From Cetobacterium sp. 8H (GTDB lineage Bacteria; Fusobacteriota; Fusobacteriia; Fusobacteriales; Fusobacteriaceae), in assembly GCF_014250675.1 (NCBI RefSeq), contig NZ_JACHTG010000003.1, positions 124,001-188,000 on the forward strand: DNA of 64,000 nucleotides. Direction: 5' to 3'. Below are positions 11,817 to 61,837 of the stretch, one piece after another. Under the pieces are notes generated by a model that saw only the letters and a list, made by a program, of their open reading frames with translations, had not been told where the DNA came from and ran no database searches. How positions within the stretch are numbered: position 1 is the stretch's first letter; each line of letters starts with the position of its first letter. Made by a program: the position numbers and the translations under genes.

Positions 11817-11860
11817 AAATATACAAAGTCTATAACAAAAATATGTTTAACTTCAATTTG

Positions 11861-11940
11861 ATACTTCCCTACGCTGGTACTATCCAGATCAGGTTCAAAG
11901 GGTCAGTTAAAAACTTCTCAGCCTATTGGCTCCCCTAGTA
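11861..11940 (-). ncRNA. TPP riboswitch aptamer (THI box)
   Basis: On the minus strand the aptamer runs from ACTAGGGGAGCC through GGCTGAGA, CTGACCCTTTGAACCTGAT and CTGGATAGTACCAGCGTAGGGAAGT (written here in overlapping pieces). These are the hallmark conserved blocks of the THI element, including CUGAGA in the pyrimidine-sensor arm. It controls thiD-thiM. Confidence 0.97.
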
Positions 11941-11964
11941 ATCTTTTATATTTATTTTTAACAC

Positions 11965-12682: not shown

Positions 12683-14077
12683 TTATAGAGTATCAGCCAC
12701 TTTTTGAACTTTTTCTTTAAAATCAGTAATATCTTTTATTGATTTTTTTACATCTACAGTTTTTAATTGTTTATTATCAACTATAATTTTACCATTAACT
12801 ATTACTGTTTCAACATTACTTGCATTAGCAGAATAAACAAGCGCTGAATAAGGATCAAATATTGGATTCATGTTTACTGAAGATGTTTCAACTATGACAA
12901 TATCTGCTAACTTTCCATTTTCTAAACTTCCTAACTCATTTTCTCTATGAATTGCTCTTGCACCACCTATTGTAGCCATCTCAACCACTTTTTTTGGTGG
13001 CATTGCAGATCTATCTTTATTTGCAAGTTTATGTAATTTAGCAACATATCCCATCTGTCCAATTATATCTAATGTATTCCCACTCATTGGTCCATCCGTT
13101 CCTAAACCTACTCTTAAACCATCATCATGCATTTTTAATGCTGGTGATATTCCTTTAGCAGATTTAATATTAGCAACCATATTATGTGCCACTCCAACGT
13201 CTCTTTTTTTCATAAGTTCAATATCACTATCAGTTACAAATATATTATGAGCTGATATAAATCTCTCATTTAAAAGTCCTAATGAATCTAAGTACTCCAC
13301 TGGTGTCATTCCAAAATCTTTTTTAATTTTATTAAACTCTACATCTGTTTCTGCTACATGCATAGAAACAGGAACATTATATTTTTTAGAAAGCTCTTTT
13401 ATTTTTAAAAGCTCTTCTTTTGTCACAGTATGTGGTCCATGTGGTCCAAAACCAGGTGTTATTAATTCGTCATTTTTATATTTTTCAACAAATGCGATTG
13501 CTCTATTTAAAGTTTCACCTTTATTTTGCCCATCTGCTGTAGGATATTTAATAATATTTTGTGTCATTATTCCTCTAAGTCCAACTTCTTTTACAGCTAT
13601 TGCTGCATTTTCTTCATACAAATACATATCTACCATAGTTGTAACTCCACCTAAAGCCATCTCCATTGCTCCATGCTTTGCACCTAAATATGATAACTCA
13701 GGTGTTACCATTTTAGCTTCTAAAGGAAAAATATATCTATTTAATCTATCTGGTACATCATCCGCTAGGGATCTAAATACTGTCATTGAAGCGTGCGTAT
13801 GAGTATTTATCATTCCTGGCATAATAATTCCATTCTTAGCATCTATTATTTTTTTAGCTGAATAATTTTTTAGTAAACTTTCATCCCCTACTGAAATTAT
13901 TTTGTTATTTTTTATAACAACAACTCCATTCTTTATTATTTCTCTCTCACTATTCATTGTTAAAAGAGTTCCGTTCTTAATTATAATACTCGCTTCTTCC
14001 TTTTGATTTTGTAATGATGTACACCCTAACAATAAAAAACTTCCTAGCAATAAAGCTCCTTTTAAATACTTCTTCAT
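12683..14077 (-). CDS. Lipoprotein amidohydrolase (MTA/SAH deaminase-like, ATZ/TRZ family)
   Basis: Metal-dependent deaminase of the subtype-III amidohydrolases, 464 aa. Metal and catalytic residues are in place: H93 and H95 (NTHTH), H240 and E243 (MHVAE), H277 (SAHN) and D328 (GTDGP). Unusually it has a lipoprotein signal with lipobox LLLGC (C19), so it should be anchored outside the cytoplasm. A longer frame opens at 14107, but ATG at 14077 after GGGAGGATTTT is the start and gives the lipobox. The leader carries a guanine-type purine riboswitch, so the physiological substrate may be a guanine-type base or nucleoside, not S-adenosylhomocysteine. Closest known reactions are MTA/SAH, guanine and 8-oxoguanine deamination. 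Confidence 0.85.
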   Translation of the reverse strand: MKKYLKGALLLGSFLLLGCTSLQNQKEEASIIIKNGTLLTMNSEREIIKNGVVVIKNNKIISVGDESLLKNYSAKKIIDAKNGIIMPGMINTHTHASMTVFRSLADDVPDRLNRYIFPLEAKMVTPELSYLGAKHGAMEMALGGVTTMVDMYLYEENAAIAVKEVGLRGIMTQNIIKYPTADGQNKGETLNRAIAFVEKYKNDELITPGFGPHGPHTVTKEELLKIKELSKKYNVPVSMHVAETDVEFNKIKKDFGMTPVEYLDSLGLLNERFISAHNIFVTDSDIELMKKRDVGVAHNMVANIKSAKGISPALKMHDDGLRVGLGTDGPMSGNTLDIIGQMGYVAKLHKLANKDRSAMPPKKVVEMATIGGARAIHRENELGSLENGKLADIVIVETSSVNMNPIFDPYSALVYSANASNVETVIVNGKIIVDNKQLKTVDVKKSIKDITDFKEKVQKVADTL

Positions 14078-14091
14078 AAAATCCTCCCAAA

Positions 14092-14124
14092 TAAAAAATC
14101 CCAGCAAGCAAAAGCCTACTGGGT
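14092..14124 (-). terminator. Purine-riboswitch terminator
   Basis: On the minus strand CCCAGTAGGC-TTTTG-CTTGCTGGG followed by ATTTTTTAT. It lies between the aptamer and the amidohydrolase ribosome site, as in OFF-type purine riboswitches. Confidence 0.8.
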
Positions 14125-14143
14125 ATCATCCCAATTTACTTTT

Positions 14144-14208
14144 ACTTATAGTGCTAAATTTACGGTTTAGCGTAGAAACTTTCGTCCTTATTACGAATTT
14201 ATATAAGT
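14144..14208 (-). ncRNA. Purine riboswitch aptamer, guanine-type (C74)
   Basis: All three helices can be read on the minus strand: P1 ACTTATA/TATAAGT, P2 TTCGT/ACGAA with loop AATAAGG, P3 GCTAAA/TTTAGC with loop CCGTAAA. J2/3 is AGTTTCTAC and J3/1 is AC, so the specificity base is C, as in guanine/hypoxanthine riboswitches. Loop 2 differs slightly from the usual ATATGG. Confidence 0.93.
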
Positions 14209-14229
14209 TAATAAATATTTCACAAGAAG

Positions 14230-14258
14230 ATTTTATCATATCTTAGAAATAAAATCAA
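14230..14258 (-). promoter_or_regulatory. Promoter of the riboswitch-controlled amidohydrolase
   Basis: TTGATT (14253-14258), 17-bp spacer, TAAAAT (14230-14235) on the minus strand, about 20 nt before the aptamer. Confidence 0.65.
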
Positions 14259-15507: not shown

Positions 15508-16530
15508 ATGAAAAAATTAAAAAATCTTTTAATCAGTTCGGTAACACTTCTATTAATAGCTTGTGGGGGATCTAAAGAACCTGAAAAAACTTTCACATTT
15601 TATGCAGGTCTTCAAGATGATCATGCCGCTATGATTGCTAAAGAGTTCCAAGCTAAAACAGGTATCAAAACTGACTATGTTAGAATGAGTAGTGGTGAAG
15701 TTTTAGCTAGACTTAAGGCTGAAAAGAATAATATGACAGCTTCAGTTTGGTATGGGGGTCCTGCTGATGCATTTGTCGCTGCTCAAGCAGAAGGTCTTTT
15801 AGAACCTTACAAATCTAAAGAGGATCAATATATTCCAGCTAATTTAAAAGACCCAGGTAATTACTGGACAGGTATATATGTTGGATATTTGGGATTTGTT
15901 GGAAATCAAAAGATGCTAGCAGAAAAAGGACTTGAAATGCCAAAATCTTGGAACGATCTTCTAGATCCTAAATTTAAAGGTGAGATTGTTGTTGCACATC
16001 CTGGTTCGTCTGGAACTGCTTATACAATGGTTGCAACTCTTGTTCAATTAATGGGTGAAGATCAGGCTATGGAATATTTAAAGCAACTAAATCAAAATAT
16101 AAGACAATATACTAAATCTGGTACAGCTCCTGGTAGAATGGCTGGTCAAGGAGAAGTGACTGTTGGTATAACTTTCTTGCATGACGCTATCAAATATAAA
16201 AAAGAAGGATTTACTGATATTATAATTTCTGCACCAGAAGAAGGAACAGGATTTGAAATTGGTGGAGTTGCTCTACTAAAAAATGCTCCAAATCCAGAAG
16301 CTGGTAAAATGTTTATTGATTGGGTTCTTTCAAAAGAAGTACAAGAACTTGGTAAAACTGTAGGTTCTTATCAATTCTTAACTAATTCTAATGCTAATCC
16401 TCCTGAAGAAGCTATGCAACTAAAAGGTACAAAACTTATTGACTACGATTTCGATTGGGCTGGTAACAATAGAGTTAGACTTGTTGAAAGATTTACAAAT
16501 GAAACTAATACTGATATCCCACAAAAATAA
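15508..16530 (+). CDS. ABC importer substrate-binding lipoprotein, AfuA/FbpA-like
   Basis: 340-aa periplasmic binding protein of the iron(III)/AfuA cluster. Lipoprotein signal with lipobox LLIAC (Cys19). Typical blocks: VRMSSGEVLARLKAEK, VWYGGPADAF, EMPKSWNDLLDPKFKGEIV, SGTAYTMVATLVQL. The neighbouring Tyr pair that binds ferric iron in FbpA is not evident. The VWYGG-x-AD block and the overall pattern look closer to AfuA, which in Actinobacillus binds sugar phosphates. Substrate is therefore open: ferric iron or a phosphorylated sugar. First gene of a three-gene importer; AAGGAGG precedes the ATG. Confidence 0.82.
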   Translation: MKKLKNLLISSVTLLLIACGGSKEPEKTFTFYAGLQDDHAAMIAKEFQAKTGIKTDYVRMSSGEVLARLKAEKNNMTASVWYGGPADAFVAAQAEGLLEPYKSKEDQYIPANLKDPGNYWTGIYVGYLGFVGNQKMLAEKGLEMPKSWNDLLDPKFKGEIVVAHPGSSGTAYTMVATLVQLMGEDQAMEYLKQLNQNIRQYTKSGTAPGRMAGQGEVTVGITFLHDAIKYKKEGFTDIIISAPEEGTGFEIGGVALLKNAPNPEAGKMFIDWVLSKEVQELGKTVGSYQFLTNSNANPPEEAMQLKGTKLIDYDFDWAGNNRVRLVERFTNETNTDIPQK

Positions 16531-16541
16531 AAAAAGGATCT

Positions 16542-18266
16542 GTGAAAAAAATGATAAATAAAATAAACTCAACAATAGGTTATAAAAAAAAGCTTTTGAA
16601 AGAGTTATATAAAGATAAATTTTTATTTTTTTCCATATTATTTTCTATTTTGGTAGTAGCATTTTTTGTGCTACTACCTCTATATAATGTTTTTTTAGAA
16701 AGTATAACCTTTAAAGGTCAATACAGTTTACAAAATTATATAGATTCATTTTCAAGAAGTGGAAATATAACAATTATCTGGAACACGCTAAAATTAGGAT
16801 TTGTTTCTTCAACTCTTTCTTTAATTTTTGGTTTCATTTTTGCATATGCAACATCATATTTAGATATAAAAGGTAAAAAAGTTTTTGATTTTATAGCTAC
16901 TTTACCTATTATCTCTCCACCATTTGTTGTTGCAATGTCAGCAATTCTTCTTTTCGGAAGAGTTGGACTTATCACCAGAGGTCTTCTAGGACTTCGTAAT
17001 TTTGAAATATACGGATTTCACGGGTTAGTTCTGGTTCAAGTATTAAGTTTTTTTCCTATTGCCTATTTGATGCTTGTAGGACTGTTTAAAAACATAGACC
17101 CTTCTGTTGAAGAAGCTGCAAGAGATTTAGGTGCCTCTAGAGGTAAGGTCTTTTCGACTATAACTCTTCCTCTTATGCTTCCAGGAATAGCTAATGCTTT
17201 TCTACTTGTATTTATTCAATCTATTGCTGATTTTTCGAATCCAGTTGTTATTGGTGGAAATTTCACTACAATCTCTGTTAAAATTTATCAAGAAGGAATT
17301 GGAAACTTTCAACTTGGAGTTGCAACGGCTCTCGCTATGATATTATTGACAATTTCAATAAAAATTTTCGTTCTTCAAAGAAATTATATCAATAAAAAAT
17401 CCTATATTACTGTTACTGGTAAAGCTTCTAGAGCTAGAGATTTAATAACTGAAAAGAATATCGTGAGACCTATTTATTATTCTCTTATAGTTTTAACTGC
17501 CTTTGTTTTTTTAATGTATGCCTTAATCCCAATTGGATCTTTTGTTAATCTTTGGGGAGTTGATTATGGATTTACTTTAAAACACTATAAATATATCTTT
17601 GATTTTGGGACTACCCCTATATATCAAACAACCTATTTATCTGTTATAGCTACTATAATTACCGGAATTGCTTCTATGATTATTGCATTTTTAATTGCAA
17701 GAAAGGAGTTTATAGGAAAATCATTTCTTGAATTCACAACAATTATGGCTCTAGCTATTCCTGGTACTATTATTGGTTTAGGATATGTTATTAGCTATAA
17801 TGTTACTTATAACATTCCTTTTACAAATTTTGTTGTTATTCCTACCCTAACAGGAACAGCTTTTATTATTATAATGGCCTTTATCATTAGAAATCTTCCT
17901 GTGGGTATAAGATCTGGAATTAGTTCATTGCAACAAATAGATCCCTCTATAGAAGAAGCCGCTCAAATTTTAGGAGCTTCTAGTAGTACAGTTATCAGAA
18001 CAGTTACTATCCCTATGATAAAAGATGCTTTTTTTAGTGGTTTAATCTATTCTTTTGCTCGTAGCATGACCTTAGTAAGTACGATCATTTTTTTAATTTC
18101 TGCTAAGTGGAAGCTTTTAACTCCAGCTATTATGAATAATATAGATACTGGTAGAATCGGAGTTGCTTCTGCATACTGTACTATTCTTATTGTTATCGTT
18201 TCACTTGTTATGTTTGTAATAAAGTTAACACTAGATTTTAAAAAACAGGAGCTGAACAATGAATAA
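16542..18266 (+). CDS. ABC importer permease, two fused permease domains (AfuB/FbpB-like)
   Basis: 574-aa inner-membrane protein made of two homologous permease halves of about six helices each. Each half has an EAA loop that contacts the ATPase: EEAARDLGASRGKVF and EEAAQILGASSSTVI. Such fused permeases are typical of the ferric-iron/AfuB group. The start is GTG at 16542 close after AAAGGATCT; ATG at 16551 (3 codons on) is an alternative. The 3' end overlaps the ATPase gene by 8 nt. Confidence 0.87.
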   Translation: MKKMINKINSTIGYKKKLLKELYKDKFLFFSILFSILVVAFFVLLPLYNVFLESITFKGQYSLQNYIDSFSRSGNITIIWNTLKLGFVSSTLSLIFGFIFAYATSYLDIKGKKVFDFIATLPIISPPFVVAMSAILLFGRVGLITRGLLGLRNFEIYGFHGLVLVQVLSFFPIAYLMLVGLFKNIDPSVEEAARDLGASRGKVFSTITLPLMLPGIANAFLLVFIQSIADFSNPVVIGGNFTTISVKIYQEGIGNFQLGVATALAMILLTISIKIFVLQRNYINKKSYITVTGKASRARDLITEKNIVRPIYYSLIVLTAFVFLMYALIPIGSFVNLWGVDYGFTLKHYKYIFDFGTTPIYQTTYLSVIATIITGIASMIIAFLIARKEFIGKSFLEFTTIMALAIPGTIIGLGYVISYNVTYNIPFTNFVVIPTLTGTAFIIIMAFIIRNLPVGIRSGISSLQQIDPSIEEAAQILGASSSTVIRTVTIPMIKDAFFSGLIYSFARSMTLVSTIIFLISAKWKLLTPAIMNNIDTGRIGVASAYCTILIVIVSLVMFVIKLTLDFKKQELNNE

Positions 18267-19323
18267 TCCAAAGAAAGTAACTATAAAAAATTTAACTAAA
18301 GTTTTCACTTCAAATAAAAAAGAAGTCACTGCCGTAGATAATATTGATCTTGAAATTCAACCTGGTGAATTCGTTTGTCTTCTAGGACCTTCTGGATGTG
18401 GAAAAACCACAACTTTAAGAATGCTTGCAGGTTTTGAAGTCCCTACATCTGGAAATATTTTTATAGGGGATAAAGATATTGCTAACTTAACTCCAGATAA
18501 AAGAAATACTGCAATGGTTTTTCAGAACTATGCTCTTTTTCCTCATATGAATGTTTATGATAATATATCATATGGCTTGAAGATTCAAAAAAGGCCAAAG
18601 GCTGAAATTGAAGAAAGAGTTAAAGAAATTTTAAAAATTATGAAAATGGAAGATTTTGCCAATAGAGTCCCTTCTCAAATGTCCGGTGGGCAACAGCAAA
18701 GAGTATCTCTAGCTAGGGCACTTATTATGAACTCTGAAGTCCTTCTTTTTGATGAACCTCTATCAAATTTGGATGCTAAATTAAGATTACATATGAGAGA
18801 TGAAATTAGAAAGTTACAACAAAGAATTGGGATTACTTCTATCTATGTTACTCATGACCAAGCTGAGGCTATGGCACTTTCTGATAAAATAGTTATAATG
18901 AAAGATGGAAAAATTATGCAGGTTGGAAGTCCTAAGGAGATCTATCAAAAACCTAATAGTGAATTTATAGCAAAATTTATTGGAAGAGCTAATATAGTCA
19001 AAGGAGTTGTTGTTAATCAAGACTCAAATTTTAAAGATATTGATATCTATGGAACAATTTATAAGGTTGAGAGTGATAAAATTTTAAATATTGGTGATAG
19101 TGTTGAAATTGTTATTAGACCTGAATCCATTATTACAAATCAACCAGGTCATTCTGGAAAAGTTGTAAAAAGTATTTTTATGGGTGAAGTTCACGAATAT
19201 GAAGTTATCTTAAATAATCAGGTAATTGAAATTTGTGTTCATAGTCCCCTTGGAAAAATCATAAAAAATGTTGATGAAATACTAGATTTTAAATTTGATA
19301 ATTTAGCAATGCATATAATTTAA
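18259..19323 (+). CDS. ABC importer ATPase, FbpC/PotA-like
   Basis: 354 aa. Walker A GPSGCGKT (43-50), Q-loop MVFQNYALFPHM, signature MSGGQQQR, Walker B LLFDEPLSNLD, H-loop THDQAEA. The region after about 240 is a TOBE-type regulatory domain. Overlaps the permease gene by 8 nt, closing the operon, which ends at a hairpin terminator. Powers uptake of the substrate captured by the upstream lipoprotein. Confidence 0.9.
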   Translation: MNNPKKVTIKNLTKVFTSNKKEVTAVDNIDLEIQPGEFVCLLGPSGCGKTTTLRMLAGFEVPTSGNIFIGDKDIANLTPDKRNTAMVFQNYALFPHMNVYDNISYGLKIQKRPKAEIEERVKEILKIMKMEDFANRVPSQMSGGQQQRVSLARALIMNSEVLLFDEPLSNLDAKLRLHMRDEIRKLQQRIGITSIYVTHDQAEAMALSDKIVIMKDGKIMQVGSPKEIYQKPNSEFIAKFIGRANIVKGVVVNQDSNFKDIDIYGTIYKVESDKILNIGDSVEIVIRPESIITNQPGHSGKVVKSIFMGEVHEYEVILNNQVIEICVHSPLGKIIKNVDEILDFKFDNLAMHII

Positions 19324-56221: not shown

Positions 56222-56227
56222 TATATT

Positions 56228-56392
56228 TGTTAGTATTTGTGGCAGATATCCTGACTTAGAATCACTCTACTCTTAGGCCTTCCCATATAACAAATACAGT
56301 GGCATAGTCTAATTTCGTCATCTTTACAGTGGCGGGACCGTGTGAGAATTGCACTCATCTTTCCTTTTAATCACATTTGAACCATAAATAAT
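56228..56392 (-). ncRNA. Cobalamin (B12) riboswitch
   Basis: On the minus strand the aptamer starts near GGTTCAAATGTG and contains GGGAAGGCCTAAGAG-like and CGCCACTGTAAAG blocks, ending with the B12 box AGTCAGGATATCTGCC. It lies 120 nt upstream of cbiP and should shut off the operon when B12 is plentiful. Confidence 0.95.
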
Positions 56393-56408
56393 ATACATAT
56401 TTATTATG

Positions 56409-61639: not shown

Positions 61640-61776
61640 AAAAGAAAAAAAGCGCCAGAACTTATTTCATAAGTTGACGAGGACTGGAATTATCGAAATT
61701 TCGGCGGATATTCCAGAGGTAGTTACAACCTAAGACTTTTTACAAAACTAAGAGGGTGACCTTTAGGACAAAAAAA
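61640..61776 (+). ncRNA. glmS ribozyme (GlcN6P-activated self-cleaving riboswitch)
   Basis: Core blocks match the known ribozyme: AGCGCCAGAAC at the 5' end, AAGTTGACGAGG, TTATCGAAATTTCGGCGGAT, and AGAGGGTGACCTTTAGGAC at the 3' end. Cleavage is expected between A61651 and G61652. Glucosamine-6-phosphate triggers cleavage and decay of the glmS message. Confidence 0.97.
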
Positions 61777-61837
61777 AGTAAGTAACGATTCTCTTTAAAA
61801 GAACATTGAAAATTAAATATTTTTAGGAGGTTTTTTT

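Follow-up and report, generated by a model that had tools for sequence, protein, structure and literature searches.

On balance, we consider it probable that a guanine-sensing OFF switch in Cetobacterium sp. 8H controls a periplasm-facing lipoprotein, a deaminase of the (deoxy)adenosine type that would supply the guanine branch. The elements involved lie on the minus strand of the window, by which the whole stretch of 64,000 nucleotides analysed here is meant, in the order promoter-like site, purine aptamer, terminator and amidohydrolase gene. The aptamer, the switch anatomy, the export signal, the clade and the active-site residues were computed directly; the predicted sensor and export have good comparative support, and ligand binding, substrate and direction of flux are what we infer.

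The aptamer (14129..14226, minus strand) comprises P1, P2, P3, kissing loops and C74, and was assigned by RF00167 and covariation. The match to RF00167 Purine at 14226..14129 scored 67.5 bits, where the gathering score is 37 (E=1.1e-9 for the 64 kb searched), and the model is covered end to end (1-102/102). J2/3 is GUUUCUAC, identical to the consensus, and the GG/CC pair between the loops is there as well. J3/1 reads AC; thus position 74 is C and the aptamer belongs to the guanine class. C74 was found in all 15 leaders compared. The folding energy of the aptamer on its own is unexceptional (z=-0.08), and the case for it rests on the conserved core and covariation rather than on folding energy. 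False matches to the purine aptamer model in AU-rich sequence have been cautioned against (PMC2258182); here, core conservation and covariation together rule out a chance match of this kind. An 8-oxoguanine riboswitch variant was also set aside, because the core equals the guanine consensus. Counted over P1, P2, P3, kissing loops and terminator in the 15 leaders, 96.9% of cells are paired, and 14 pairs carry double-sided changes, compared to 3.7 in shuffles (0/500).

Behind the aptamer lies an intrinsic terminator (14100..14123, minus strand) with a 10-bp stem followed by a U-tract, at -18.0 kcal/mol (z=-5.6). Its stem covaries, and 14123..14100 is the sole terminator-like site found (0.1 expected). 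Both the guanine-type aptamer with C at the specificity position and the terminator after it, as claimed in an earlier sequence-only reading, are thereby borne out. A candidate antiterminator spans 14106..14148 on the same strand, in which AAGUAAAAG, the P1 3' strand and its tail, pairs with CUUUUGCUU, the terminator loop and 3' arm. This pairing is incompatible with both P1 and the terminator. It is possible in 15/15 leaders, with 95.6% of cells paired as against 33-68% in slid controls; despite this conservation, no double-sided changes were observed in it among the 15 leaders. The promoter-like site (14230..14258, minus strand) was found by consensus scan and is of the extended -10 type (TTGATT-17-TAAAAT, with TG ahead of the -10). 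With 5 such sites against 3.6 expected, it is weak alone, but it is well placed just upstream of the aptamer. Overall, the leader has the usual design of a guanine-OFF attenuator, an anatomy from which we infer guanine binding and control of termination; expression when guanine is short, as previously proposed, would agree with it. Other RNAs seen in the window are a TPP riboswitch (11849-11946) before thiamine salvage genes, a cobalamin riboswitch (56224-56401) ahead of genes clustered at about 44-56 kb, and a glmS ribozyme (61640-61789).

The gene under this leader (12683..14077, minus strand; ATG at 14077, stop at 12683, RBS GGGAGG) encodes a predicted (deoxy)adenosine-type deaminase of 464 aa with an export signal, recognized as an amidohydrolase by PF01979 (E=5.7e-75) and by Foldseek. 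ORF calling gave a 474-aa reading from TTG 14107, which was discarded because that start falls inside the terminator. The predicted lipoprotein signal peptide (14021..14077, minus strand), read from the sequence, has the lipobox LLLG followed by Cys19. The N-terminus, MKKYLKGALLLGSFLLLG before that C, has a basic n-region, a hydrophobic h-region and a canonical lipobox with its Cys, and lipobox and Cys are kept in the Cetobacterium copies and paralogs. Asp at position +2 is the usual lipoprotein signal for the inner membrane; the residue here is Thr, and thus not that signal. The protein is probably lipidated and extracytoplasmic. Export signals throughout were called by visual inspection together with a simple rule based on hydrophobicity and lipobox.

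All metal ligands of the amidohydrolase (H93, H95, H240, H277 and D328) are present, which upholds the earlier description of a deaminase-type active site. E120, H213 and E243 (numbering of the 464-aa protein), which we take to be the substrate residues of MTA/adenosine deaminases, are also present, and do not vary across the exported clade or in 4f0r. Gln173 stands where the MTA/SAH-type proteins L066 and L067 have Arg, presumably the substrate-binding Arg of TM0936. The structure model has a mean pLDDT of 83 and a pTM of 0.85, and its best Foldseek matches (3lnp, 4f0r, 4f0s, 4dzh, 4dyk and 4gbd) are MTA/adenosine deaminases. The nearest solved proteins by sequence and fold include complexes with inosine and methylthio-coformycin. 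Guanine deaminases appear in the fold ranking only from place 35 on, so that the suggestion of guanine or guanosine as substrate is not supported. Pfam reported PF01979 and PF07969 only. Equivalog cut-offs were missed for PRK15493 (MTA/SAH deaminase, MtaD type; 235.6 bits against 779), TIGR02967 (guanine deaminase; 148 against 375 bits) and PRK08203 (8-oxoguanine deaminase; 242 against 532 bits). A 5'-deoxyadenosine deaminase model was among the best NCBIfam scores, yet below its cut-off. As for the Add family, Pfam gave no PF00962, and TIGR01430 was absent among the 25 NCBIfam matches listed. By sequence, fold and pocket residues the enzyme is grouped with MTA/adenosine deaminases, and the SAH-binding Arg is absent. 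The inner exported clade has a 2-residue deletion after ADD, has lost a Trp, and carries DGPMSGN for DGAASNN (SGN for SNN); this changed substrate loop means that the substrate may have shifted. The most likely substrate is a 6-aminopurine nucleoside, with room for such a shift.

The link between riboswitch and gene was surveyed in 98 Fusobacteriota genomes, where the subfamily is separable by score (about 480-900 bits; next match 334). This copy is preceded by a purine leader in 11 of the 11 genomes in which it occurs: nine of nine in the genus Cetobacterium, together with G003 and G023, which represent two neighbouring genera. Additionally, a second lipoprotein paralog has a purine riboswitch upstream in each of its 4 Cetobacterium copies. 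Beyond the genome of the window, the leader recurs in 10 other Fusobacteriaceae genomes and at the 4 paralog loci, which speaks against chance. In the other Fusobacteriaceae scanned, a purine riboswitch was absent before the subfamily gene. The riboswitch label requires three changes on the deaminase tree, indicating that gene and riboswitch became linked on three branches, either newly or along with a copied leader. The leader of L056 is strongly divergent in sequence, which implies at least two distinct leaders. The paralogs (L072-L075, in genomes G009, G006, G004 and G005) are about 51% identical lipoprotein amidohydrolases located downstream of an RpiR-type regulator, and their pocket is altered (GEE for ADD, Tyr for His298). 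In Cetobacterium somerae, counterparts of the window genes (contig C3, 459 kb) lie near glyA on records of 664-705 kb called plasmids; plasmid records of 128-137 kb carry the paralog. Viral carriage was considered and dropped, as no relative was found among viral contigs.

Export can be followed on the same tree. The exported set and three nested cytosolic copies form one branch (support 95/93) apart from the cytosolic enzymes. All subfamily homologs have an exported N-terminus, with a lipobox or a Sec-type signal, except in three genomes of one genus; the one locus of a nested cytosolic copy that was examined adjoins an adenine deaminase. Export requires two changes on the tree, and is best read as having been gained once and lost once. 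The type of signal (lipoprotein, Sec or none) requires seven changes over three states, and a Sec-type signal instead of a lipobox is found in several homologs, including the riboswitch-controlled L030 and L056. From these counts, periplasmic location is the conserved property and the lipid anchor a local form. The earlier picture of an extracytoplasmic enzyme is supported by the export signal and the lipobox; a lipid anchor as the conserved trait was considered and rejected. The exported clade ranges over Fusobacteriota, Acidobacteria and some Gammaproteobacteria, among them Proteus, Photobacterium and Vibrio. Its gammaproteobacterial homologs from Proteus mirabilis (L096), Photobacterium (L095) and Vibrio (L097/L098) are 43-56% identical, and come from records without annotation in the stretch. 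The tag '8oxoG' on three tree rows is a label only; the three cytosolic paralogs so tagged reached no NCBIfam cut-off.

Outside Fusobacteria, the neighbourhoods of exported relatives are often rich in nucleoside-salvage genes. In L130 the order is deoA-nupC-pnp-cdd-deaminase, and the L133 cluster holds the deaminase, deoA, nupC, a nucleoside hydrolase and a ribokinase. The deaminase adjoins deoB and nupC in L134, deoB and an NCS2 permease in L132, and deoC in L131; L023 has a NupG-type symporter and a member of the ADP-ribosylglycohydrolase family. L138 and L139 (the same as L031 and L032) contain a nucleoside hydrolase with a signal-like N-terminus, a ribokinase and a CDA-like lipoprotein. 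The clearest of these contexts are found in deeper branches, as well as in Gammaproteobacteria and Acidobacteria. No nucleoside-gene neighbours were seen at the exported relatives L024 and L095-L098, and the deaminase gene of Cetobacterium stands alone. In the cytosolic sister clade, contexts judged by eye comprise ubiG and mupP/gph-like genes, often with mtnA (methionine salvage) adjoining. This contrast between exported and cytosolic neighbourhoods is the main support for the proposed nucleoside substrate. The L031/L032 lipoproteins have two CDA-like halves, the first with an HAE...CGDC motif. Their Pfam match was not significant (dCMP_cyt_deam_1, E=0.07) and phmmer gave a cytidine deaminase at E=0.003; since the Pfam match fails, the name CDA-like rests on the HAE...CxxC-type motif only. 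The acidobacterial L031/L032 loci are possibly a set for periplasmic nucleoside degradation.

Ten purine aptamers were found in the 2.57-Mb genome, eight with C74 and two with U74; some of the regulon products were named by eye from sequence. The C74 aptamers precede the gene of the 464-aa deaminase, purE-purK, guaA, three loci starting with an NCS2 permease (one of which continues into xanthine dehydrogenase-like genes), a cytosolic amidohydrolase followed by an NCS2 permease, and a pair formed by a Crp-like regulator and an MFS protein. The U74 aptamers precede add, whose product is a cytosolic TIGR01430 adenosine deaminase, and a further NCS2 permease. The view that deaminases are normally not under purine riboswitches is thus contradicted within the same genome, by add under U74 and the cytosolic amidohydrolase, of the same superfamily as the exported enzyme, under C74. 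The idea that the exported enzyme feeds purine salvage is supported. The genome also encodes two lipoprotein 5'-nucleotidases, NupC, Bmp proteins, PNP-family enzymes and a nucleoside hydrolase, which would be components of a route leading from external nucleotides to guanine nucleotides. Several of the aptamers L009-L017 have G, U or C at position 73, and in place of U48 in J2/3 there is an A in add and guaA and a C in L014. In L014 an aptamer of the guanine class stands before the Crp-like regulator and an MFS_2-type sugar transporter. Within the window, an ABC transporter occupies 15508-19323, and its binding protein is closest to 2-aminoethylphosphonate models, below their cut-offs.

On the proposed mechanism, bound guanine would close P1, the terminator would form and the gene would be silent; when guanine is absent, the P1 3' strand would pair with the terminator loop and 3' arm, and transcription would proceed. 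The protein would follow the Sec route, undergo lipoprotein processing and be tethered at Cys19. It would convert adenosine, 2'-deoxyadenosine and possibly MTA to inosine-type products, which would be taken up, cleaved to hypoxanthine, and passed on to IMP, XMP and GMP. An inosine-making enzyme expressed when guanine is short fits the supply of IMP, XMP and GMP, and the C74 switch that guaA itself has points the same way.

Several points weigh against this explanation. A cytosolic add is already present in the genome, and the formation of inosine before uptake is not obviously needed; the nucleoside-gene contexts are clearest in other and deeper lineages, the Cetobacterium gene is solitary, and nucleoside neighbours are lacking at the exported relatives L024 and L095-L098. 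The altered loop of the exported clade and the antiterminator without double-sided covariation also count against it. The enzyme may instead be a periplasmic MTA or 5'-deoxyadenosine deaminase, by which thio- or deoxynucleoside by-products, whether exported or encountered in the gut, are recovered and their hypoxanthine part reclaimed. Its nearest neighbours of known structure bind MTA or methylthio-coformycin, the 5'-deoxyadenosine deaminase model scores high below its cut-off, and a Cys/Met PLP enzyme lies near some relatives (L024, L025). However, the contexts of the exported clade mostly concern nucleoside catabolism, mtnA is a neighbour in the cytosolic clade and the Arg of MTA/SAH-type enzymes is absent, so this alternative is regarded as unlikely. 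The loop change could also have moved the substrate altogether, to an amidohydrolase reaction other than nucleoside deamination. The derived loop and the SGN motif are common to the inner clade, as such a departure would have it, yet the substrate-contact residues of nucleoside deaminases are all kept and nucleoside genes are neighbours; we hold this to be very unlikely.

Deamination of guanine, 8-oxoguanine or guanosine, the view of the sequence-only reading, is highly improbable. It would suit a guanine riboswitch and a superfamily common to guanine and 8-oxoguanine deaminases; against this, guanine deaminases rank far lower by sequence and fold, the pocket H213/E120/E243 is of the 6-aminopurine nucleoside type, and destroying guanine during a guanine shortage would oppose the switch. 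It is also improbable, to a marked degree, that the enzyme chiefly clears adenosine or toxic nucleoside analogues from outside the cell, in host signalling or competition, with purine supply secondary. An extracytoplasmic site and the records of Cetobacterium somerae from fish would suit that role, but guanine control and membership of a purine-supply regulon fit nutrition better, and relatives also occur in taxa not known as gut-bound.

Compared to known systems, the leader shares with the guanine riboswitch of the xpt type (RF00167) the three-helix aptamer, the kissing loops, C74, the J2/3 sequence and the guanine-OFF terminator design; it differs in governing a predicted exported enzyme. 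Like the add adenine riboswitch, it is a purine riboswitch before a purine deaminase, but U74 and the cytosolic Add family are found there, and C74 and an unrelated exported enzyme here. The MTA/adenosine deaminases of Chromobacterium (4f0r/4f0s), Pseudomonas (4dyk/4gbd), Oleispira (3lnp) and Xanthomonas (4dzh) have the same fold (TM 0.87-0.88 by query), the metal ligands and E120/H213/E243. At about 30% identity, the Cetobacterium enzyme is set apart from them by export, a loop 2 residues shorter, the lost Trp, SGN for SNN and other gene neighbours. The MTA/SAH deaminases of the TM0936 type (MtaD) share the superfamily and the catalytic set, and differ by the exported state of the Cetobacterium enzyme and by its Gln173 for the substrate-contacting Arg. 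In the literature searched, no riboswitch for a cytoplasmic base was found to control an enzyme active outside the cytoplasm, and no description of periplasmic purine nucleoside deamination was found.

A broader proposal, tentative and somewhat short of probable, is that compartment and riboswitch class together divide purine salvage. Cytosolic add under an adenine-type U74 switch would stand opposite the exported deaminase clade under C74, and periplasmic deamination would supply guanine nucleotides. On this view, the exported deaminases would make up a family not yet described, which acts on purine nucleosides in the periplasm and came under guanine riboswitches on three branches. The finding marks the whole exported deaminase clade, whose members were annotated merely as 'amidohydrolase' where annotation was present. 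It also suggests that Cetobacterium starts to convert scavenged nucleosides before uptake, and offers a testable prediction of substrate and physiology for this fish-gut genus.
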